Positions 28,729-40,388 of a stretch of 50,712 nt of DNA are shown here, one piece after another; within the stretch, counting starts at the first letter, position 1, and the number at the start of each line of letters is the position of its first letter. This DNA comes from Candidatus Woesearchaeota archaeon (GTDB lineage Archaea > Nanobdellota > Nanobdellia > Woesearchaeales > GW2011-AR9). The translations under genes and the position numbers were made by a program. The stretch is from positions 1-50,712 of the forward strand of contig JAGVYE010000002.1 in NCBI GenBank assembly GCA_018303445.1, read 5' to 3'. The notes below the pieces were generated by a model that did not search any database, was not told where the DNA came from, and saw nothing but the letters and a program-made list of their open reading frames with translations.

Positions 28729-28801
28729 ATCTTCTTTTTTTGCGAAAAATGATAAAAATGTGTCAAAACAATCTTAAAGAGATTTGTTCTTAAGTTTAAT
28801 A

Positions 28802-29104
28802 ATGTTAGGCTATCAAAAACTTGCTGCTTTCTGTGCACCTGTGCTTTTATCGGCCTGTGCCCATTTTCCGAGCCGTGAAGAATGTGTTCTTATCTATCAG
28901 CAAATTACGTTCGGCGTCATACAAGAAGAAATGCTAGGTTGCGATTATGATAATGATGGGTCACTTGATGCTATTGTCATAACAGCAGGAACTAATCACT
29001 CCTGTCCTGCGGGAATTATTAATCGCTATAAATCTGAGCCTGGATGCGAACTTTCTAAAGAAGCTTGGGAAAAAATACAAAAAGGATATGATTCTACGAG
29101 ATAA
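28802..29104 (+). CDS. Small lipoprotein, paralogue 1
   Basis: A 100-aa lipoprotein with signal MLGYQKLAAFCAPVLLSAC ending in a lipobox. The mature part has the acidic loop GCDYDNDGSLDAI, like a single Ca-binding DxDxDG loop (EF-hand/dockerin style), then CPAGIINRYKSEPGCELSKEAWEKIQK. The gene 7 bp downstream encodes a protein with the same plan, so they are a tandem duplicate. ATG 28802 is chosen over the upstream TTG because it starts directly before the signal helix. The function is unknown. Confidence 0.65.
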   Translation: MLGYQKLAAFCAPVLLSACAHFPSREECVLIYQQITFGVIQEEMLGCDYDNDGSLDAIVITAGTNHSCPAGIINRYKSEPGCELSKEAWEKIQKGYDSTR

Positions 29105-29111
29105 TAGTTTT

Positions 29112-29435
29112 ATGCCGCTTACCACAAAAATCACCGCCCTTTTCTTCCCCTTTGTTTTCTCTGGATGCGCTTCTCTCGTTGCCGCAGAATGTAAACCATT
29201 GTATAAAACAAATTTTGCAGGAATCACGGTAGGTGAAATTCAAGCTTGTGATCCTGATAGAAATGGAGAAGTTGATAAAATCATCGCCTCGGGAATATAT
29301 TTTTCTTTAGAATGCCCTCAAGGCGAATATCAACGAACAAATAAAAGATCTGGATGTACTCTTTCTGAAGAAATATGGGAAGAAGTGCAGAAGAAACATG
29401 GCGGAAAGAGGAATCTATATTGGGAAAAGCCTTGA
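29112..29435 (+). CDS. Small lipoprotein, paralogue 2
   Basis: A 107-aa lipoprotein. Its signal MPLTTKITALFFPFVFSGC ends in a lipobox, then ACDPDRNGEVDKI corresponds to the acidic loop of paralogue 1 and CPQGEYQRTNKRSGCTLSEEIWEEVQK to its C-terminal Cys region. Conserved Cys positions suggest shared disulfides. The start at 29112 is preferred; an upstream Met (29088) overlaps paralogue 1 and would spoil the signal peptide. Confidence 0.65.
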   Translation: MPLTTKITALFFPFVFSGCASLVAAECKPLYKTNFAGITVGEIQACDPDRNGEVDKIIASGIYFSLECPQGEYQRTNKRSGCTLSEEIWEEVQKKHGGKRNLYWEKP

Positions 29436-30702: not shown

Positions 30703-32685
30703 ATGTACAAAAAGAGGGAAAAGATAGAGGTATGTAGGTCTTTTTCTAACTCTTTCTTCCCTGAAAAACAAGGGCAAGTTACGATTTTCATTATTCTTGG
30801 ACTGATCCTTATTTTTGTAGTTGCGCTTATTTTCTTAACCAAGCAGGAAGTGGTGAAAATTAAGCCGGAAGAACTTATTCCTAGCGAAAAAGGGAAAATA
30901 GAGAATTTCGTCAGAGCCTGCATCAAGAGTGTCGGTGAGGAAGCCTTATTTCAACTGGGCTTGCAAGGCGGTTATATTGAAATGCCTTCTGAAATTAGCA
31001 ATGACGCCAGCCGCCATGTGCGTCTTTCCCCGTTCTTAGTTGTTCCCTATTGGGCTTATGGGGAAGTGAAGGATATGCCTTCGCGAGAAGAAATCAAGCA
31101 GCGTCTTGATGCGTATATGGAAGAACATCTTAGAGGCTGCCTCTTTGATTTAAACGCCTTTAAAGAAACGTACAATCTTATTGAAAAAACAGAGATCACG
31201 GCAAATACGGAAATACTGGACAACAAAGTTATTTTTTATGTCCATTGGGGCCTTGAAGTTCGTGACAAAAATGGGGAAAAAATCAGTGAAGTGATTAACC
31301 ACCAGGGAGAATCGCCGATTCAGCTTGGCAAGGTGTATGAAACGGCAAAAGCAGTTGTTGAACGGGAATTACTTACCTTAAAATTGGAAGATATAACACA
31401 GGATCTTATTGCTTTAGAACATCCTAATGTCCCCTTAACCGGTCTGGAAATGAGTTGCAAACGCAAAACATGGGATGTGAGCACCGTTAAAAAAACACTA
31501 AAGGATATGTTGCGTGTTAATATCAAAAAGCTGCGTGTGAAGGGAACAGAATTTGTGGAATTTCCGGAAGAGCTGCCATATTATCAGAATCATTACGTCT
31601 GGAATATGGGAGAAGGATTTGCCCAACAGGACATTAGTGTCGTGTTTAATTTTGAAAATACGTATCCGTTTACATTTCAAGTAACACCACTTACGGGAAC
31701 AAAAATGGCGAGCAATCAACAAGGAGGAACAGACTTAATTTCCTTTTTGTGCCTGCAAACCTGGAAATTCACTTATGATGTTATGTACCCTGTAGTCGTG
31801 AGAGTGAAAGATGAAAAGACAGGGTATAATTTCAATATGGCTTTTACCGTTCACTTGGTGAGAAATATCCCTAACCGAAAAGTGGCTATTGAAGCGAGAA
31901 ATCCAACTTCGCTTAACTTTCCTACCGATGAGGAATATTGCCGAGATGTGCGCATACCCATGACAGTAGTTACAAATTCCCAAGTTGTTAGCGACGAAGC
32001 AGGAGTTAATGATATTACGCCTCTCGAGGATGTAGAGATAAGTTTTTCTTGCTTGAAATATAGTTGTGAAATGGGCCAAACTGATTTTGATTTTGAAGAG
32101 AGCGGCTACCAAGCGGACTTAACAGTTAACTACCCTTACTGCGTGGGTGGGATTGTCCGGGGAGTAAAGGAAGGATATAAAGAAACATGGCAGAGAGTGG
32201 TAACAGAACATGATAAAATGGTGGAGCTGAATCTTGTTCCTCTTCATACTCTTCCTTTAAAAGCGCTAAAAGTTGTAAAACATGATCTAGAAGATTTGCA
32301 AGAAGAAAATCTGCAGACTGAAGAATTGGATGAAAATGAAGTGGCGCTGGTACGCTTAAAGCGTTTTGTCAATGGAACCCTTAACCATGAAATTCAGCAA
32401 GTGATAAGCGCTAAATTATCTTTGGAAACAGTTGACCGCTTAAAAGTTGAATTTCTGGCAGAAGCGGATTATCAATATGAAGTTGAGATTAACGTCTTTG
32501 ATGAAGAAAATCTCATTGGCGGATATAAAGCCAACTGGACCATTCCTTGGGATACGCTGCAAGAAGCAGAAGAGATTACATTCCATACCCTGACCCTGAA
32601 AAATCCACCGCAAGAAGATCTCTTTCAGCTCCTCCTTAACCTGGGGCCGGAAAGTGGAAAAGTTCCCTTGCCGGAAATTAAATGA
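30703..32685 (+). CDS. Envelope protein with pilin-like N-terminus (cassette gene 1)
   Basis: A 660-aa protein. About 25 basic or polar residues precede GQVTIFIILGLILIFVVALIFL, a membrane helix whose leading KQGQ resembles the class III signal of archaeal type IV pilin-like proteins. This helix type seems common among DPANN envelope proteins (from memory). The rest is predicted outside: beta-rich, with scattered Cys (for example RACIKS, RGCLFD, SCLKYSCEMG), and no catalytic motif that I recognise. The TATA box 27 bp upstream supports the ATG at 30703. Its stop overlaps the start of the giant gene (ATGA), so the two are translationally coupled. Confidence 0.7.
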   Translation: MYKKREKIEVCRSFSNSFFPEKQGQVTIFIILGLILIFVVALIFLTKQEVVKIKPEELIPSEKGKIENFVRACIKSVGEEALFQLGLQGGYIEMPSEISNDASRHVRLSPFLVVPYWAYGEVKDMPSREEIKQRLDAYMEEHLRGCLFDLNAFKETYNLIEKTEITANTEILDNKVIFYVHWGLEVRDKNGEKISEVINHQGESPIQLGKVYETAKAVVERELLTLKLEDITQDLIALEHPNVPLTGLEMSCKRKTWDVSTVKKTLKDMLRVNIKKLRVKGTEFVEFPEELPYYQNHYVWNMGEGFAQQDISVVFNFENTYPFTFQVTPLTGTKMASNQQGGTDLISFLCLQTWKFTYDVMYPVVVRVKDEKTGYNFNMAFTVHLVRNIPNRKVAIEARNPTSLNFPTDEEYCRDVRIPMTVVTNSQVVSDEAGVNDITPLEDVEISFSCLKYSCEMGQTDFDFEESGYQADLTVNYPYCVGGIVRGVKEGYKETWQRVVTEHDKMVELNLVPLHTLPLKALKVVKHDLEDLQEENLQTEELDENEVALVRLKRFVNGTLNHEIQQVISAKLSLETVDRLKVEFLAEADYQYEVEINVFDEENLIGGYKANWTIPWDTLQEAEEITFHTLTLKNPPQEDLFQLLLNLGPESGKVPLPEIK

Positions 32686-35600
32686 AAATGATACAGAAAA
32701 AAGAGATGATTGTACTGCTGATGATTTGGCTAGTTCTGAGCATGCCCATCACTCAAGCCTTCAGTATCTCAAATGTGAAAGCTGACGATGTGACACAACA
32801 TACAGCCAGCATTTCCTGGGAAACGGATGAGCCGGCAAATGGTTTTGTTGAGTATGGTGAAAATAAAGAGCAGTTGCAGAAAATAGGCGATGCTAAGGAA
32901 CTTTTAACTCATGCCTTTCCCCTTTCACAACTGAAGGAGAATACAACATATTATTTTAAAGTGGAAAGTAAGGAGGTTATAGATGATAACAATGGACAGT
33001 TATATTCTTTTGAAACTTTGCCGCCAGATAAAGAAGCTCCTCTTTTAGAAGTTACAATGCCCACAAGTGTGGCAGGAAATAAAGTTGATGTTACCGTAAA
33101 AACAGAAAGAGGAGCGACGATTACGGTTTTTGTGAATAATGTGAATATACGAAGTTCTCTTGCCAGGGAGGAAGTAACAACTATTTCAGCAGTTACGATT
33201 GACGGAAATAAGGAAAATACGATTACCGTTAAAGTTAAGGATAGTGCGGGAAATGAAGCCGCTTTTACAGGAAAAGTTTTTTCTGACAATGCGCCTCCCA
33301 AAATAACGTTACAAAAAATTCCAGAACTTATTGCCGAAAATAAGATCAGACTGCAAGGAACAGTTTCTGAAGATAGCAGCATGGAAGTTTTTGTGAATAA
33401 TCGGTCTGTAAAAACAGTACAAGGAATTTCTCTCAATGAAGAAATACGACTGCAGGAAGGGGCTAATAAGATTCGCGTTGTCGCGAAGGATAAAGCAGGC
33501 TGGGAAAGTGATGAAGAAATTACCGTTGATGCTGATACTGTTCCTCCAAAAGTAGATTTTGAATTTGAAGAAGGGTCTGAATATTATGAAGGAAGAGCGG
33601 ACACAGATATTAAAGGAGAGACAGAAGCAGGGGCAAAAGTATTTCTATACATTTATCAACGTCGGGGGGATCAGTTCCGCGCCGACTTTTCAAGACCAGT
33701 TGACATCGTAACTGCTGACAAAGAAGGAAAATTTACATTCAAAGACGCAAAGTTTCCTCCTTCTGTGTTTACAATCGGCAGAGGAAATGCAACGAGAGTG
33801 ACGCTTGTCCCGCGGCAAGTTCCTACGGGATTAGAGGAAGTGTTAATTTCACCATTAGACAAGTTGACGCAGGAACAGCGCAAGTCTTTTGATGTCATCA
33901 TCATCGCCGAGGATAAAACAGGAAAGAGCGGATTTAAGAAAAGAGTGGTGAATGTCAATTCCTGTTTTTCGTCGAGTTCTGATTTTAATATCATCCCCAT
34001 TCCCGAATTTCAAGCTCCGTTCCGCCTTAATCCCGATTTGATGGAGGAAGGAAGAGAAACTATCCAGGCCGTTTTCAATCTCACTTACCGAGGAAATGGC
34101 ATTCCCCGTTTGAATTCGAGAACTAATCTGCTGGAAAGCCCGTATCAAGTCCAGAGCGTAACCTTTGCCAAAGCCTGCACTCAGGAAACCACAGGCACAG
34201 ATGATTATTCCACTGGATGCCAGCTTCTTCCGTCAGGAGCACTCACATCGCAACCAAATCATGACAAAACGGCCTTCTATGTAACTTCTAATTTACGGCC
34301 GGCGAAAGAATTTCTGCAACGAAAGCCAGATCTTTGGGATGATTTCAAGAATCGTCAATTGAAAATGCCGCTCAAAGTTACAGTGCGCTATCGTGAACGG
34401 GATGCTAACGGCGGGTTTGGGCCAACCAAGACGCAAGTGCAATGCCAGGATTTAGGATATTTCGTTGATATTCCAGCGGAAGTGCAGAATTTTATTCCTG
34501 ACGCTCTGGCGGATACGTCCATCGCTATCTTGAATGAAACCATTAATGCCATTGAAGAAATCAAACCGTCTCTAGAAACGGCGATGATGGCCACGGGAAT
34601 TGGCTGTGTGGCTTCATTCCTTACAAAGTTAATCGCAAAATTTTACCGATTTTTTATCGCCCATTTTGAGCCTTGGTTAACAAAATTTAATCCCACAAAA
34701 AAAGAGGAAGGGTGTCCATTTATTGACGGGCAGCATAACTTGCTGCTTGATGATACGATTGAAAATTGGCAGAATATTGGAGTATTAGGCACTTCTGTTG
34801 ATGATAACATCAGGTTTTCGAAACGATGCCCGCAAACGGCAAAAGCGTGGGAAATGGAAGCCTTCTTAGACCAAGCTTACCGCTGGACATGCGATCGTTT
34901 CTTATGCCGAGCTGTACCAGCAAGATGGACGGAAAGTAAAGAAGAACCAGAAATTAAAGAAGTGTTGCAAAAACAATTGCAATGTTCCGCAACAAGTAAT
35001 GGGGTGTACTTGCAAAAAATCGAGAATTGCCACGAGCAATTAGAAAAAGATCCTAGTGCGAAGGAATTTCTGCGCATCCATAAACAGAGCGTAGTAGAAT
35101 GCTGGCGCGATGTGGAAGGAAATCTCTTTTTTGTTGATAACGCGAAACAAGAAAGCTTGAATGACCAAGGCATCTGGCGGCTTAGCCCTATTCCTACTTT
35201 TGGACAAGTGGGCCGTAAAGCACCTTCAGGAGATTTATTAGTCTATAAGCCCGAAGGTTCTCAAACTTATATGACCAGCGTCGACAAAACGTGTAAACAA
35301 GTGTGCGAAAGTAAGAAAGGATATGAAGCCGTCAGTGATGGTTTTTTCGTCAATGGCGTGAATAGCTGTTATAAGCAAGAAGAAAACGGATTGAAAAGTC
35401 AAACGGATATTCTCCGAGGAGAGAAAATAGGAGCCGGATATACAAACGATTGTTTTATTGACCGAGCTAATCCCAGCGCGGGGTTGTATGAATGTGTATG
35501 TCAGACGAAAGTGAGTCAGGCAAACGTACCAAAGACTAAACCTACTTCGCGCGAAGCGAAGAAGAAAGAAGTAGTGAATAATGTTGAAGTTGTGGAAGAA

Positions 35601-38000
35601 TGGAGTTATCACCAAGATCGTCTCTATAAGGAAACAAATGGAGTGTATGGAACATTATATTCAAAATTGAGGTATTATGGCGGGCGAGATTTAAGCGGCG
35701 CCTTTGGATTAGATTATGGATTAGATAATTTTCGAGATAAGAATTTCACGACCACACAAGTCAATCCGAGCACAGATTGGTTTGGCACGTTTCAAGCAGT
35801 TTGCCTGCCGGGAATTAATGCGCGGTTAACGATGCTGCAAAGTGTCCTGCAGGGCTTGCAAGGATGTATTGTGGAAGCAAAGTATACGGGGCTGAGGGAT
35901 GCGGGAACGTGTAAAACTATTTTCACACAATATTTCTGTGGCTTGATCTATAAAGGAATTGCTCTTCTTGCCAGCAGTTGTTCGCCTTTATCATTTAAAG
36001 ACCTGGGAAAAGGCTTTGAAGATCCAACGGAAGGAGGAGTTCAAGCCTTCTTTGATTCGGGATTTAAGGCCATTCCGGAAGCGATTGAAAGTTCAATTTC
36101 GGAAGTGCAGTCCGATTATGGCAATGCTAAATTTAACCAATTCTTTTCCACGGGAGTGCAAGGATTTGCCGAATCCATTTGCTTAGCAGCCTTTGGTTAT
36201 GATTTCCCATTTGGCATGGATTTCATTCTTGATGCCGCGTATTCATTTCCCACAGCAACGAATGTCTTTTTCCCTGTAGCGAATAGAGAACTGGCAACAT
36301 TTGACCCTGTAAAAGGAACAGCGGTGTATAATTACGAATTAGCAGGCGCGATTCTGCCGGGATGTAACTTTCGCGGATATAAAACAGAATTAAAGTGTGT
36401 AACAATCGAAGATGCAGGGAATCCTGGCCTTTCCTGTTCCGATCAGCGTTGCGATTGCATGCAGGCAACAGGATTACGACCAGAATCAGCAGGAGCACGA
36501 ACACATAAAATAGATGGAGGAACGAGTTTCAGCGGAGTACAGAGAGGAAAATTGTTCGACCTTCCTTTAGTCTCTCCACAAAAAGTCAGCAGTGAGTTCC
36601 GCTATGATCACGTCGTTTTAGATATCATCTTAGATCAAAATGAAGATCCAACAAGATGTTTTGATGAAGGATATAGAACGCCAAATGGAGGAAGATTTTA
36701 TTTCCCCATTAGTGATGTTGGGCCGGAGAGAGTCGGCACTTGTCAAGTTGATGTTCTCACAGGACGGTTTAAATGCCCGGAAATTGCTTCGCTGTTTGGA
36801 GGAGGGCAAACCTATTTTGAACATCCTTTTATCACTTGTTTTGATAAACTGAATAATCAATATGTTGATTGCGAGACGCCAAATCTGTTTATTGTTGGCC
36901 AAGGAAATATTCAAGTGAAACCGCATCTGAATATTGGAAAAGGCGCTTATTGTTTAGAAGTAGCTGATAATCGAGGGTTGCTTACACCACTCACAATTCC
37001 CATTCCAGAAGGCACGCAGGGAACGTACGCCCCACCACTCGATCTTGGTCCTGTATCCCAAGAAATGATTATAGGGGGAACGAGAGCCACAATTGTTCCG
37101 GCGCATGATAGTGATAATGGATGTGGAGGAGAAGGGAGACGAGATTTGCACGTCATTGATTATCCAGGACCGGCACAAGTAATACAAGAGAAATCATTTA
37201 CATTTAAGTACCTGCCACAAGGAGGAGATCAGTATACTATTACTCTTCCTCCTGATGTTGATGTTGTTAAACCAAATCCTCATCATCCTACAGCACAATA
37301 TGAAATAGATGCAACGACGAGAGAATTAACACTGGCAGGAGTAAAAGTGCTCAGTGCTGAGGACATTAACAACGCCGTCTTTCAGTATCAAGGATTTACC
37401 TTTGACAAAGTTCTGGGACATCCTACACCTGCACCAGGGAAAAATGGACAGTGCACATATAGAATTTCAGCAGCACGAACAGGAACAGCGGCAAAGATTG
37501 GATCGCTTTCCATTACCGCGAAACTCTTGCAAGCGCCAACAAGCGGCAGCTGCTTCCAGGCCACACAGCTTGTTGCACCCAGTCAATTAGGAAGGAATTT
37601 AGTTTCTCTGCCCATTCGCGTGCAAGCAGAGACGGTAGAACAAACACAAGCGACAGGGATACATGAAGATTTCACACGGGGAGATTATGACCGTGTTATT
37701 GGCAAAGCTCAGCCTATTGTACAGCGAAAGGAGAGTAATGTAGAACATGTCCGTGGATTATACTATTGGATTGCCAGTTTAATTATGAAAGGGAAAGGAG
37801 TTGAACCGTATAAAGGAGAAATAAAAGGATTATTAGAATTGTTCTTTGACCGAAATTATAATGACAAGGAAATTTTAGATAGTTATGATACGGTGATAAC
37901 AAATGATCCGCAATTTCAGAAAATATGCACCTATCTGTGTGAAGTAGATACAGAGATAGATAATAAATATGCAACAAAGTGTCAAAATGGCTGCACATAA
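32682..38000 (+). CDS. Giant Cys-rich secreted protein (cassette gene 2)
   Basis: A 1772-aa secreted protein. Signal peptide about 1-26 (MIVLLMIWLVLSM..TQA); an Fn3 domain about 27-115 (VKADDVTQHTASISWETDEPANGF); two or three Ig-like domains to about 425 (VTVKVKDSAGNEA, IRVVAKDKAGWES, DTVPPKVDFEF). A long region that I do not recognise follows (about 430-1640) with dozens of Cys, several in CxxC or CxxxC spacing, suggesting many disulfides. A helical C-terminal domain (about 1660-1770: EDFTRGDYDRVIGKAQPIV...) looks TPR-like. Two moderately hydrophobic segments near 635 and 1090 could contact a membrane. It may be a stalk or adhesin of the cassette. Its end overlaps the next gene by 32 bp. Confidence 0.72.
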   Translation: MKMIQKKEMIVLLMIWLVLSMPITQAFSISNVKADDVTQHTASISWETDEPANGFVEYGENKEQLQKIGDAKELLTHAFPLSQLKENTTYYFKVESKEVIDDNNGQLYSFETLPPDKEAPLLEVTMPTSVAGNKVDVTVKTERGATITVFVNNVNIRSSLAREEVTTISAVTIDGNKENTITVKVKDSAGNEAAFTGKVFSDNAPPKITLQKIPELIAENKIRLQGTVSEDSSMEVFVNNRSVKTVQGISLNEEIRLQEGANKIRVVAKDKAGWESDEEITVDADTVPPKVDFEFEEGSEYYEGRADTDIKGETEAGAKVFLYIYQRRGDQFRADFSRPVDIVTADKEGKFTFKDAKFPPSVFTIGRGNATRVTLVPRQVPTGLEEVLISPLDKLTQEQRKSFDVIIIAEDKTGKSGFKKRVVNVNSCFSSSSDFNIIPIPEFQAPFRLNPDLMEEGRETIQAVFNLTYRGNGIPRLNSRTNLLESPYQVQSVTFAKACTQETTGTDDYSTGCQLLPSGALTSQPNHDKTAFYVTSNLRPAKEFLQRKPDLWDDFKNRQLKMPLKVTVRYRERDANGGFGPTKTQVQCQDLGYFVDIPAEVQNFIPDALADTSIAILNETINAIEEIKPSLETAMMATGIGCVASFLTKLIAKFYRFFIAHFEPWLTKFNPTKKEEGCPFIDGQHNLLLDDTIENWQNIGVLGTSVDDNIRFSKRCPQTAKAWEMEAFLDQAYRWTCDRFLCRAVPARWTESKEEPEIKEVLQKQLQCSATSNGVYLQKIENCHEQLEKDPSAKEFLRIHKQSVVECWRDVEGNLFFVDNAKQESLNDQGIWRLSPIPTFGQVGRKAPSGDLLVYKPEGSQTYMTSVDKTCKQVCESKKGYEAVSDGFFVNGVNSCYKQEENGLKSQTDILRGEKIGAGYTNDCFIDRANPSAGLYECVCQTKVSQANVPKTKPTSREAKKKEVVNNVEVVEEWSYHQDRLYKETNGVYGTLYSKLRYYGGRDLSGAFGLDYGLDNFRDKNFTTTQVNPSTDWFGTFQAVCLPGINARLTMLQSVLQGLQGCIVEAKYTGLRDAGTCKTIFTQYFCGLIYKGIALLASSCSPLSFKDLGKGFEDPTEGGVQAFFDSGFKAIPEAIESSISEVQSDYGNAKFNQFFSTGVQGFAESICLAAFGYDFPFGMDFILDAAYSFPTATNVFFPVANRELATFDPVKGTAVYNYELAGAILPGCNFRGYKTELKCVTIEDAGNPGLSCSDQRCDCMQATGLRPESAGARTHKIDGGTSFSGVQRGKLFDLPLVSPQKVSSEFRYDHVVLDIILDQNEDPTRCFDEGYRTPNGGRFYFPISDVGPERVGTCQVDVLTGRFKCPEIASLFGGGQTYFEHPFITCFDKLNNQYVDCETPNLFIVGQGNIQVKPHLNIGKGAYCLEVADNRGLLTPLTIPIPEGTQGTYAPPLDLGPVSQEMIIGGTRATIVPAHDSDNGCGGEGRRDLHVIDYPGPAQVIQEKSFTFKYLPQGGDQYTITLPPDVDVVKPNPHHPTAQYEIDATTRELTLAGVKVLSAEDINNAVFQYQGFTFDKVLGHPTPAPGKNGQCTYRISAARTGTAAKIGSLSITAKLLQAPTSGSCFQATQLVAPSQLGRNLVSLPIRVQAETVEQTQATGIHEDFTRGDYDRVIGKAQPIVQRKESNVEHVRGLYYWIASLIMKGKGVEPYKGEIKGLLELFFDRNYNDKEILDSYDTVITNDPQFQKICTYLCEVDTEIDNKYATKCQNGCT

Positions 38001-38550
38001 AAAAGCAAGTTTGGGAGTAGAAGTGCTGTTGATGTTAATCCTCGTAGTTATGATAAGTGCAGTGATACTGTTCCTTATTAAATCTGGAATGATTAGTGTG
38101 AAAGCTAGTGGGAGTGAAGAGCCTATTCTGAATACGGAGTTTATACCCTTAGAGAGAGAAGGGGTTTTAACTCTTACTTCATTTTCTTTCTGCCGTTATG
38201 TGGACAGTAATTATCGATGCTTGCAACCTTTGGAGCGCTTTCCTCTCGGCGCTGATGTCTACTTTATTTTTACTGTAGAAAGCAGTACAGAAAATGAAAA
38301 AGTTATCCTCATTGAGAATTATAAACTTAAAAATCCACAAGGAATAGTTATTCTTGATGTTGACGCACGAAATGATTTCTATGTGGAAAGTACCAGCGAG
38401 AAAAAAAATGAAGAAATTACATTTAAAGATTATTTTATTACTGATCTTTCATTAGAGGAAGGTGTTTATACTCTAGAATTACATCTAGAAAATCCCATTT
38501 TAGCGAAAAATGTTAAAGCGACAAAAAAAGTAGAGTTGTTTAGAAAATGA
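37969..38550 (+). CDS. Pilin-like anchored protein (cassette gene 3)
   Basis: A 193-aa protein. KKASLGVEVLLMLILVVMISAVILFLI matches the class III (type IV pilin) arrangement: basic n-region, small residue at the cut site, Glu at +5, then a hydrophobic helix. The extracellular part is a beta-rich domain of about 140 residues with two Cys (SFCRYVDSNYRC). Start options are ATG 37969 or ATG 37987; both lie inside the preceding gene, so translation is coupled. The last 4 bp overlap the hydrolase-like gene. It may be a pilin or a membrane-anchored subunit of a surface complex. Confidence 0.68.
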   Translation: MQQSVKMAAHKKASLGVEVLLMLILVVMISAVILFLIKSGMISVKASGSEEPILNTEFIPLEREGVLTLTSFSFCRYVDSNYRCLQPLERFPLGADVYFIFTVESSTENEKVILIENYKLKNPQGIVILDVDARNDFYVESTSEKKNEEITFKDYFITDLSLEEGVYTLELHLENPILAKNVKATKKVELFRK

Positions 38551-40388
38551 AAAAATCCATACTCGTCTTATTCCTAGGAATTTTTCTTATATTGAGCTTA
38601 GTTTCCGCCCTTGATTCTAACTTGGATGGAACTGGAAACGATGATGATCCGTACCGTTGGAAAAATGGAATTCTTGGAGTTAATGAGAACTGTGAGGTAC
38701 GGATTTTTCAGGAAATGCAATGGGTGGAAAGATTACAAGCTTCACCTATTCTCGTTATTGGTTCAGGAAATGTTGATGATCCTTTCACATTAAGTGATAC
38801 AAATAAAGGATTGGTATGCGAGCCGATGTCAGTAGCACGAGAGAGAATCTACGTTGTTTTCCTTGATCTAAATACCAAAAAATGGACTCGAAGTTCTCGA
38901 GTTGGCGCTGGCCAGCCCTCTTCACCAAGTAGTGTACAGGTTGTTCCTAAGGATGTTTGTAGGGACACGCCTTGTCTCCAATTAAATGATGTGTGGCTCA
39001 GGATAAGTACATTTCTCACCAAAGTTGATTCCTCCAAGAAAAGGCAAGTGTGGGATACGTCATTAGGGTGGGTTGATCCATCAAAACTTAAAGAAATAGC
39101 AGCGTCAGTTATAGTGCCGCCTGTAACACCGCCAACTCCAAAACCACCTGTTGGGGTAAGTAAAAAAATAATTGTGGACACTGCTTTGAATGAATTCAGA
39201 AGCTGGAATCAAGGAACTCTCAGTGAAACAGACACAGGAGCGCAAGTTCTTCTTAATAAGTATGCTACTTCTATAAATGCTGCTTCTTGGAATTCAGGAA
39301 CTCCTTGGTCTGCTATCTTTATCTCCTGGGTTATGCAGGAAGCGGGCATTACTGATTTTCCCAGTAATGGTTACCATGCGGGATATTTCAAATCCATTCG
39401 TGAGAGTCCTGGCATATGTACAACGCATCGCATGAGCGAATTTAATTCCATCCAAGCAGGAGATATTCTCTGTGCATGCAGGGGAAATGGTTGTCTTATT
39501 ACTTACGATGATGCAACTTCTCCCAAGGAAAGTCATTGTGATATTATAACTGAAATTTCAGACGATTCTCTTGCCATCGTTGGTGGAAATGTTCATTCGG
39601 CTTCCTGTGGAGCGAATCCTAATGTTGGCTGTACAGTGAACAACCGACCCATAAGTAAATCGAACATTATTAGCAATGCACGTTATTTTGGTTTTATCAG
39701 TTGTGGAGAAACAACAGGAGAACCTTCAGAATTTACAGATTATGATTTTCATCAGACAAAAAAATATGTAGACACGACGCATCTGCAAAAAGTGGAAGAT
39801 AAAGCAGCAGAAGCAGGCATGGATGCTTGTTATCCTTTAGTTACGATTCTTTTTGAGTCCCAAGGAAATCCTGAAGTAATCGGCGTAGATGCAAATGTTC
39901 GTACTTGTAATACCATCTCACGACGGACATTTATTATTAATACTCTTCCTTCAGAATGTGGTAGTTATGCCACGTCGGATGGAAGTACAAGACTGCGTGA
40001 GGATTGTGAAAATGGAGTTAACAATGCATGTGTAAATTCTATAGGTGATAGATCTTATCAATTACCCATACCAACACAGAATGATTTTTGTTCTTCATCA
40101 TATGATCAACGATACACGTATGGTATTGGTTTAGGACAAACTACTCCCGAGGAAGGTTCTACTTCCATTACTATTAAAGGAAAAACATTTACACATTGCG
40201 GTCTCTTTGATGTCGATACCAATATTGAAGCGACAATTAACGAATTGCAAAAGAAAAAAGAAGCAGCAGAAGCTAGTTGTAGAAATAATAAGACCTGTGT
40301 AGTTCGTGAAACATTTAAAAGATATCGTGGGATTCTGGATACAGAAAGAGTTCAAGCTTTTAATAGCTGCCAAACAAAAAAGAAATAA
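38547..40388 (+). CDS. Secreted DUF2272-like plus lytic transglycosylase-like protein (cassette gene 4)
   Basis: A 613-aa secreted protein. Signal peptide about 1-21 (MKKSILVLFLGIFLIL..VSA); an N-terminal domain to about 195 ending in a Pro linker (VTPPTPKPPVG). Then comes a DUF2272-like domain (about 205-390; VDTALNEFRSWN, PWSAIFISWVMQEAGI, AGDILCACRGN, HCDIITEI, VGGNVHS), a family linked to cell-wall amidase folds. The C-terminal domain (about 420-600) looks like a lysozyme/SLT fold: PLVTILFESQGNP supplies a Glu in the catalytic position, and YGIGLGQTTP and DVDTNIEATINELQKK match the GLxQ and N-x-x-A-x-x-x-L elements. Cys are plentiful. Such enzymes cut murein, which archaea lack, so the substrate is open. 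Confidence 0.7.
   Translation: MKKSILVLFLGIFLILSLVSALDSNLDGTGNDDDPYRWKNGILGVNENCEVRIFQEMQWVERLQASPILVIGSGNVDDPFTLSDTNKGLVCEPMSVARERIYVVFLDLNTKKWTRSSRVGAGQPSSPSSVQVVPKDVCRDTPCLQLNDVWLRISTFLTKVDSSKKRQVWDTSLGWVDPSKLKEIAASVIVPPVTPPTPKPPVGVSKKIIVDTALNEFRSWNQGTLSETDTGAQVLLNKYATSINAASWNSGTPWSAIFISWVMQEAGITDFPSNGYHAGYFKSIRESPGICTTHRMSEFNSIQAGDILCACRGNGCLITYDDATSPKESHCDIITEISDDSLAIVGGNVHSASCGANPNVGCTVNNRPISKSNIISNARYFGFISCGETTGEPSEFTDYDFHQTKKYVDTTHLQKVEDKAAEAGMDACYPLVTILFESQGNPEVIGVDANVRTCNTISRRTFIINTLPSECGSYATSDGSTRLREDCENGVNNACVNSIGDRSYQLPIPTQNDFCSSSYDQRYTYGIGLGQTTPEEGSTSITIKGKTFTHCGLFDVDTNIEATINELQKKKEAAEASCRNNKTCVVRETFKRYRGILDTERVQAFNSCQTKKK

Follow-up and report, generated by a model that had tools for sequence, protein, structure and literature searches.

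In a 50,712-nucleotide stretch of DNA from a Candidatus Woesearchaeota archaeon (contig JAGVYE010000002.1, positions 1 to 50,712; the window), four head-to-tail genes, A to D, form a cassette (Table 1) in which A, B and C constitute a conserved unit, while the fourth position (slot 4) is occupied across the family by secreted hydrolase-type proteins that share a constant module of about 55 residues and carry enzyme domains that are exchanged between close relatives. In other orders of the class, wall-hydrolase-type domains are fused to some B-like proteins. A constant tag with swapped enzymes suggests an interchangeable tool for breaching bacteria, and we consider it reasonably probable that A and B, with C where present, form a scaffold at the cell surface, and that this scaffold bears an interchangeable enzyme for cutting murein, directed at bacteria.

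For comparison, we used 60 related genomes, 37 of which belong to the Woesearchaeota family of the window, and gene order was read in 40 fetched regions. Across the family, the genes repeatedly stand in the order PAC2-A-B-C-slot 4, with bPH/Fpg or enolase genes next in line; the gaps between cassette genes are mostly short or are replaced by overlaps of a few bases, and a 4-bp overlap is found at the C/slot-4 junction in many loci. As A, B and C are adjacent and co-oriented in about 25–30 genera, the arrangement is not a matter of chance, and the first-pass annotation of this DNA was right to treat the genes as one envelope unit. Homologs of A, paralogs included, are present in 59 of the 60 related genomes and matches to B in 51, the weakest of which cover the Fn3/Ig part only, while C was detected in 30, all within the family of the window.

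Gene D was recovered by plain homology search in only 5 of the 60 genomes, which made slot 4 appear to be usually empty; the first-pass annotation had named the lack of the fourth gene in most genomes carrying the other three as evidence against a system. Gene order overturned this impression: among 31 readable loci (those in which C and one or more complete genes downstream of it can be read), slot 4 holds a secreted multidomain hydrolase-type protein in 30. In two loci (L098 and L118), the slot-4 gene comes after an inserted gene or gene pair, and the lone exception (L122) has an open reading frame (ORF) judged by eye to be Schlafen-like, followed by the end of the contig.

A wall-hydrolase domain scored above its Pfam cut-off in 20 of the 30 slots (best domain per locus, DUF2272 counted; SLT, M15_4, M23, M74, Amidase_2, Phage_lysozyme2 and DUF2272), and five more slots have one below the cut-off (glucosaminidase in L113, Hydrolase_2 in L115 and L180, SLT in L119, M74 in L181); these totals may be off by one, as the named loci number 29 (20 + 5 + 4) and the thirtieth was assigned by eye from a second-round set. 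SleB-type enzymes are also among the murein hydrolases of slot 4. At the level of the family, this bears out the earlier proposal that the fourth product is secreted and of wall-hydrolase type. Accessory domains of slot-4 proteins comprise GDSL esterases, metallophosphatases, NodB deacetylase, EEP, FGE and DUF218, and alpha/beta-hydrolase-like regions were recognized by eye. The GDSL esterases, metallophosphatases, EEP domains and alpha/beta-hydrolase-like regions would also suit a nutrient-scavenging surface complex that, analogously to a cellulosome, digests dead bacterial walls and polymers, and peptidoglycan-degrading DPANN archaea have been proposed to form ‘vampiristic’ consortia (PMC9723730). 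However, each genome encodes one slot enzyme, at most two, which is few for a digestion complex, so that a dedicated tool fits better than general digestion; furthermore, rapid swapping of a single enzyme suggests partner-specific use. We regard such scavenging as improbable.

In L117, L118, L122, L097, L125 and L182, small insertions interrupt the series B-C-slot 4; by eye, they are Schlafen-like ORFs and short gene pairs resembling MNT-HEPN toxin-antitoxin pairs.

Almost all slot-4 products contain the module, which has the consensus RCxEIDxVW...VW...W. A first hidden Markov model (HMM), built from 21 proteins, retrieved five further slot-4 proteins (E-values 3e-7 to 5e-12) among about 560 proteins; later HMM rounds were trained on those five as well. 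At E<=0.01, the module was detected in 30 of the 60 related genomes, 29 of them in the family and one outside it with a weak match (G053, 0.0085), and some of the family matches are themselves weak (G028, 0.006) or lie at the ends of contigs. A scan of the wider order detected it in 26 of 33 family genomes versus 1 of 302 others, this one match being an alanyl-tRNA synthetase, and in a phylum sample of about 340 genomes outside the family it was found in none. A PDB profile search with the module returned no solved relative. Separately, a secreted 475-residue protein encoded downstream of B in another family (L137:2736-4163, G048) has a possible distant module (E-value 0.006) and no Pfam domain.

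The wall-hydrolase domains lie on one side of the module: in 34 module proteins, all 32 wall-hydrolase Pfam domains are C-terminal of it, versus 9 of 23 other domains, the remaining 14 being on its N-terminal side (these counts come from a domain table entered by hand from the Pfam results, in which related proteins contribute domains that are not independent of one another). Moreover, comparison of genomes of the same genus reveals that the slot-4 enzyme is exchanged while A, B and C mostly stay alike. G024 and G322 are 67%, 74% and 83% identical in A, B and C, respectively, but their D proteins, one with EEP and GDSL domains and the other with M15, share only 67 residues (67% identity). Between G009 and G339 (A 77%, B 75%, C 35%), the D proteins are alike only in the signal and module, about 75 N-terminal residues, which are followed by Amidase_2 in one and a weak M74 in the other. 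In G029 and G330 (A 86%, B 77%, C 69%), the flanks of D are kept and its center is replaced.

Elsewhere in the class, both in other families and in other orders, A lies directly before a giant protein (1709–3217 residues) in 16 of 16 loci; as these loci were picked for matching B, the finding lies in the presence of A and in the pairing. A profile of the B core ties the giants together, although weakly in other orders (E-values 1e-6 to 1e-12 over about 50–145 residues). In a Pfam scan, 5 of 11 giants from other orders contain wall-hydrolase-type domains: SLT in L198 and L200, M23 and Amidase_6 in L199, 3D (below its cut-off) and GDSL in L196, and NlpC/P60 in L209. Of the remaining scanned giants, L203 has SH3_3 only and five gave no match. 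These fusions, which like the constant module with its variable enzymes had been overlooked in the first-pass annotation, are the strongest indication that D and B work jointly. It is tempting, though still rather tentative, to extend this to a class-wide A-B machine, to which C was added in one family, that breaches bacterial walls at contact by means of exchangeable heads that cut murein, these being part of B itself in some orders and docked through the module in the family of the window. If this is true, many of these tiny archaea are symbionts or predators of bacteria, and not only of archaea.

We found no sign of murein synthesis in the family: none of the 25 family genomes tested has a full set of Mur ligases. 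Mur-ligase-like genes are present in seven of them (one each, two in G022), mostly of about 420 residues, and judged by this size they probably encode folylpolyglutamate synthase. A relative from another family (G041, contigs C2 and C7) has three Mur-ligase matches, the best at 5e-52, and possibly a murein-like pathway.

In the mechanism that we propose, A would be a membrane-anchored protein of a cell-surface scaffold, and B its giant secreted, adhesin-like component, while C would, like A, be anchored and bear a small beta-rich domain. D would be exported by the Sec route, and the constant module would retain it on the scaffold or at the cell surface, so placing its C-terminal enzymes to cut bacterial murein; the esterase-type domains of some relatives could strip protecting groups beforehand. 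Most likely, the device would serve to open, on contact, the cell wall of a bacterium that is host or prey, with domain swapping exchanging the enzyme as the partner, or the wall chemistry of the partner, changes.

Several observations weigh against this proposal. The term scaffold rests on size, anchoring and synteny, and the models of A and B match no solved fold. Five of the 30 slots (L100, L111, L114, L118 and one ambiguous locus) have no Pfam wall hydrolase, the product of L100 having phosphoesterase-type and DUF218 domains only. The D of the window itself has only a DUF2272 domain, of putative activity, and an end that is weakly SLT-like. Several family genomes, mostly incomplete or with broken loci, have no detectable module, and G003, which is 95% complete, has a module protein but neither B nor C. 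Finally, the module could be a wall-binding domain instead of a dock. In that case, D might act as a free antibacterial enzyme, a murein hydrolase secreted against competitors in the manner of a bacteriocin, with A-B-C merely a neighboring surface operon. Archaeal murein hydrolases that kill bacteria do exist and are prominent in Nanoarchaeota (PMC12352652); those known combine a catalytic domain with a binding domain, the position of the module would suit a binding domain, and G003 retains its module protein without B or C. However, slot 4 is tied to its place after C, the two genes overlapping by 4 bp in many loci, the module is restricted to the cassette locus and to one family whereas binding domains usually spread, and wall hydrolases are fused to B-like giants in other orders. 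We consider a free enzyme unlikely, and a scaffold-held one the better explanation. The G003 locus (L183) lies in a 0.7-Mb family genome, in which a D-like gene neighbors the module protein.

Gene A encodes an N-terminal membrane helix (GQVTIFIILGL; helix 24–51 in the model) and an ectodomain with an alpha/beta part, a beta-sandwich and seven invariant cysteines (mean predicted local distance difference test score, pLDDT, 86). No family was assigned by a Pfam scan, a PDB profile search gave nothing usable, and a fold search returned generic beta-sandwich matches only, those at E<=0.001 having template modeling scores of at most 0.15, except for one short target at 0.20. A paralogous pair (L251, L252, L255 and L123–L127), A' (about 710–840 residues) and the distantly B-like B' (about 1030–1490 residues), occurs in the family; in other families, it often adjoins A-B, together with a multi-helix membrane protein of about 270 residues.

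In B, a PDB profile search matched the Fn3/Ig part alone, the Ig-like region resembling a biofilm-associated protein (7dm0, 1.3e-9). The cysteine-rich core (model mean pLDDT 71) had no fold-search match at E<=0.001, and a Pfam scan of B of the window found no lytic transglycosylase or other hydrolase domain. A profile scan of contigs with a conserved B segment gave matches in metagenome-assembled genomes of Candidatus Woesearchaeota/Nanoarchaeota.

C has an N-terminus of the class III signal peptide type, with E or Q at position +5 in 20 of 26 homologs (by eye), and one small domain with two invariant cysteines that, from its sequence, is presumably beta-rich; a PDB profile search with C gave nothing usable. 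The first-pass annotation had called both A and C pilin-like. This suits C but not A, which lacks the usual +5 Glu of class III signal peptides. A type IV pilus-like appendage in which A and C served as the pilins would be consistent with the signal peptide of C and with the prepilin peptidase (A24, PF01478) encoded in 32 of 37 family genomes, including that of the window (G000:C38:5444-5782), two features that the cassette shares with type IV and archaellum-type pilins. Unlike in those systems, however, the platform protein (T2SSF/TadC/ArlJ) is missing: T2SSF (PF00482) was not found in the window genome or in 27 of the 37 family genomes with a profile that was positive in 13 of 14 known genomes, and A is a multidomain protein of 660 residues. 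We have largely rejected a pilus and deem it very improbable; of the contact, attachment or wall-opening device envisaged in the first-pass annotation, the wall-opening role remains plausible, whereas a pilus-like machine is not supported. Prepilin peptidase is retained even in genomes lacking T2SSF.

D of the window begins with a hydrophobic Sec-type secretion signal, recognized by inspection (MKKSILVLFLGIFLILSLVSA). Its DUF2272 domain contains a CHAP-like motif, PWSAIFISW, with a serine where CHAP-type enzymes carry their catalytic cysteine; the DUF2272 copies of L116, L136 and L138 likewise have serine at this site (WSAxFIS). The C-terminal region had been described as SLT-like. It is 40% identical to the same region in L112, a profile-profile comparison with SLT gave a weak match (P 5.6e-4; 31 aligned columns, among them those of the ES-GNP motif), and Pfam detects in D neither SLT nor a known wall-binding domain; the description thus stands as a weak similarity.

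The coordinates of the cassette are given in Table 1. The head-to-tail order, the common strand and the ATGA overlaps of A/B at 32682 and of C/D at 38547 agree with the first-pass annotation, as do the motifs that it named (GQVTIFIILGL in A, an Fn3/Ig N-terminus in B, KKASLGVEV in C and DUF2272 in D). The 32-bp overlap of B and C that it placed at 37969 holds if C starts at its first ATG; starting at 37987 (MAAHKKA|SLGVE), which matches the N-termini of C homologs better, reduces it to 14 bp. A TATA-like box is indeed present upstream of A, the one region inspected, and its spacing from the ATG fits a leaderless start. Two related tandem small genes with lipoprotein-like N-termini (28784-29104 and 29088-29435) lie 5' of the cassette.

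Table 1. Features of the A–D cassette (positions in the window; E-values follow the family names)
Feature	Position	Strand	Residues	Remarks
TATA-like box TTTATAA	30673..30679	+		24-30 bp 5' of ATG of A; by eye, weak motif
Gene A	30703..32685	+	660 aa	ORF; membrane-anchored
Gene B	32682..38000	+	1772 aa	ORF; secreted, Cys-rich
B, fibronectin type III (FnIII)-like domain	32766..32972	+	aa 29-97	fn3 0.0028, Pur_ac_phosph_N 2.4e-6 (Pfam)
B, adhesin-type immunoglobulin (Ig)-like domains	33096..33536	+	aa 139-285	Glucodextran_B 5e-9, Ca_tandemer 2.4e-4
B, most conserved Cys-rich core	35787..36401	+	aa 1036-1240	part found class-wide
Gene C	37969..38550	+	193 aa	ORF; likely true start 37987
Gene D	38547..40388	+	613 aa	ORF; variable slot-4 product
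D, constant module	38955..39125	+	aa 137-193	family consensus RCxEIDxVW...VW...W
D, DUF2272 domain	39288..39602	+	aa 248-352	PF10030 1.2e-17; TIGR02594 0.04
D, SLT-like C-terminal region	39729..40385	+		ESQGNP ... YGIGLGQ ... LFDVDTNI; weak

The archaea of this group are tiny and probably symbiotic, and only a minority of Woesearchaeota have a known host. That an enzyme for bacterial walls is near-universal and swapped fast behind a conserved surface unit suggests that the partners or prey are bacteria, and the cassette names proteins with which a bacterial partnership can be tested. It also hints at what a family of giant DPANN proteins, so far unexplained, might do, and the short module provides a handle for finding enzymes missed by surveys that demand known wall-binding domains.

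In polymorphic toxin systems, a constant region is combined with exchangeable C-terminal enzyme domains at a fixed locus, and the cassette likewise joins a constant region to swapped C-terminal enzyme domains. It differs in that D has no consistent adjacent immunity gene, its downstream neighbors being the conserved bPH, Fpg or enolase genes, in that the scaffold families are unrelated, and in that the likely target of D, extracellular murein, is apparently lacking in the producer. The cellulosome combines a surface scaffoldin with a short dockerin module common to varied catalytic proteins, an organization resembled here by a presumed surface scaffold and a short constant module on varied enzymes; however, a Pfam scan of A to D detected neither cohesin nor dockerin, each genome has one or two enzymes, and the target is likely murein.

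In the open-access literature, to which our search was confined (subscription papers and preprints were outside its scope), we came across no account of the A-B pair, of slot 4 or of the module, whereas giant murein transglycosylases (PMC8204110), bacteria-killing archaeal hydrolases (PMC12352652) and ‘vampiristic’ DPANN archaea (PMC9723730) have already been published. The large murein-like lytic transglycosylase proteins of Pacearchaeota and Woesearchaeota described as fam00969 (PMC8204110) are, like the class-level B-like giants, secreted proteins with lytic transglycosylase domains from the same archaea, and the SLT giants of L198 and L200, judged from the description of fam00969, probably belong to this family. 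They were listed as single proteins, and not with an A-B pair, a C gene, a D slot, a module or other enzyme types, and the B of the window has no hydrolase domain. Modular archaeal peptidoglycan hydrolases that kill bacteria share with slot-4 proteins secretion, domain shuffling and an arms-race-like pattern (PMC12352652). The survey that described them demanded a known wall-binding domain, in place of which the cassette has a new module; and while those hydrolases are patchily distributed over about 5% of archaeal genomes, the cassette locus is near-universal in its family.

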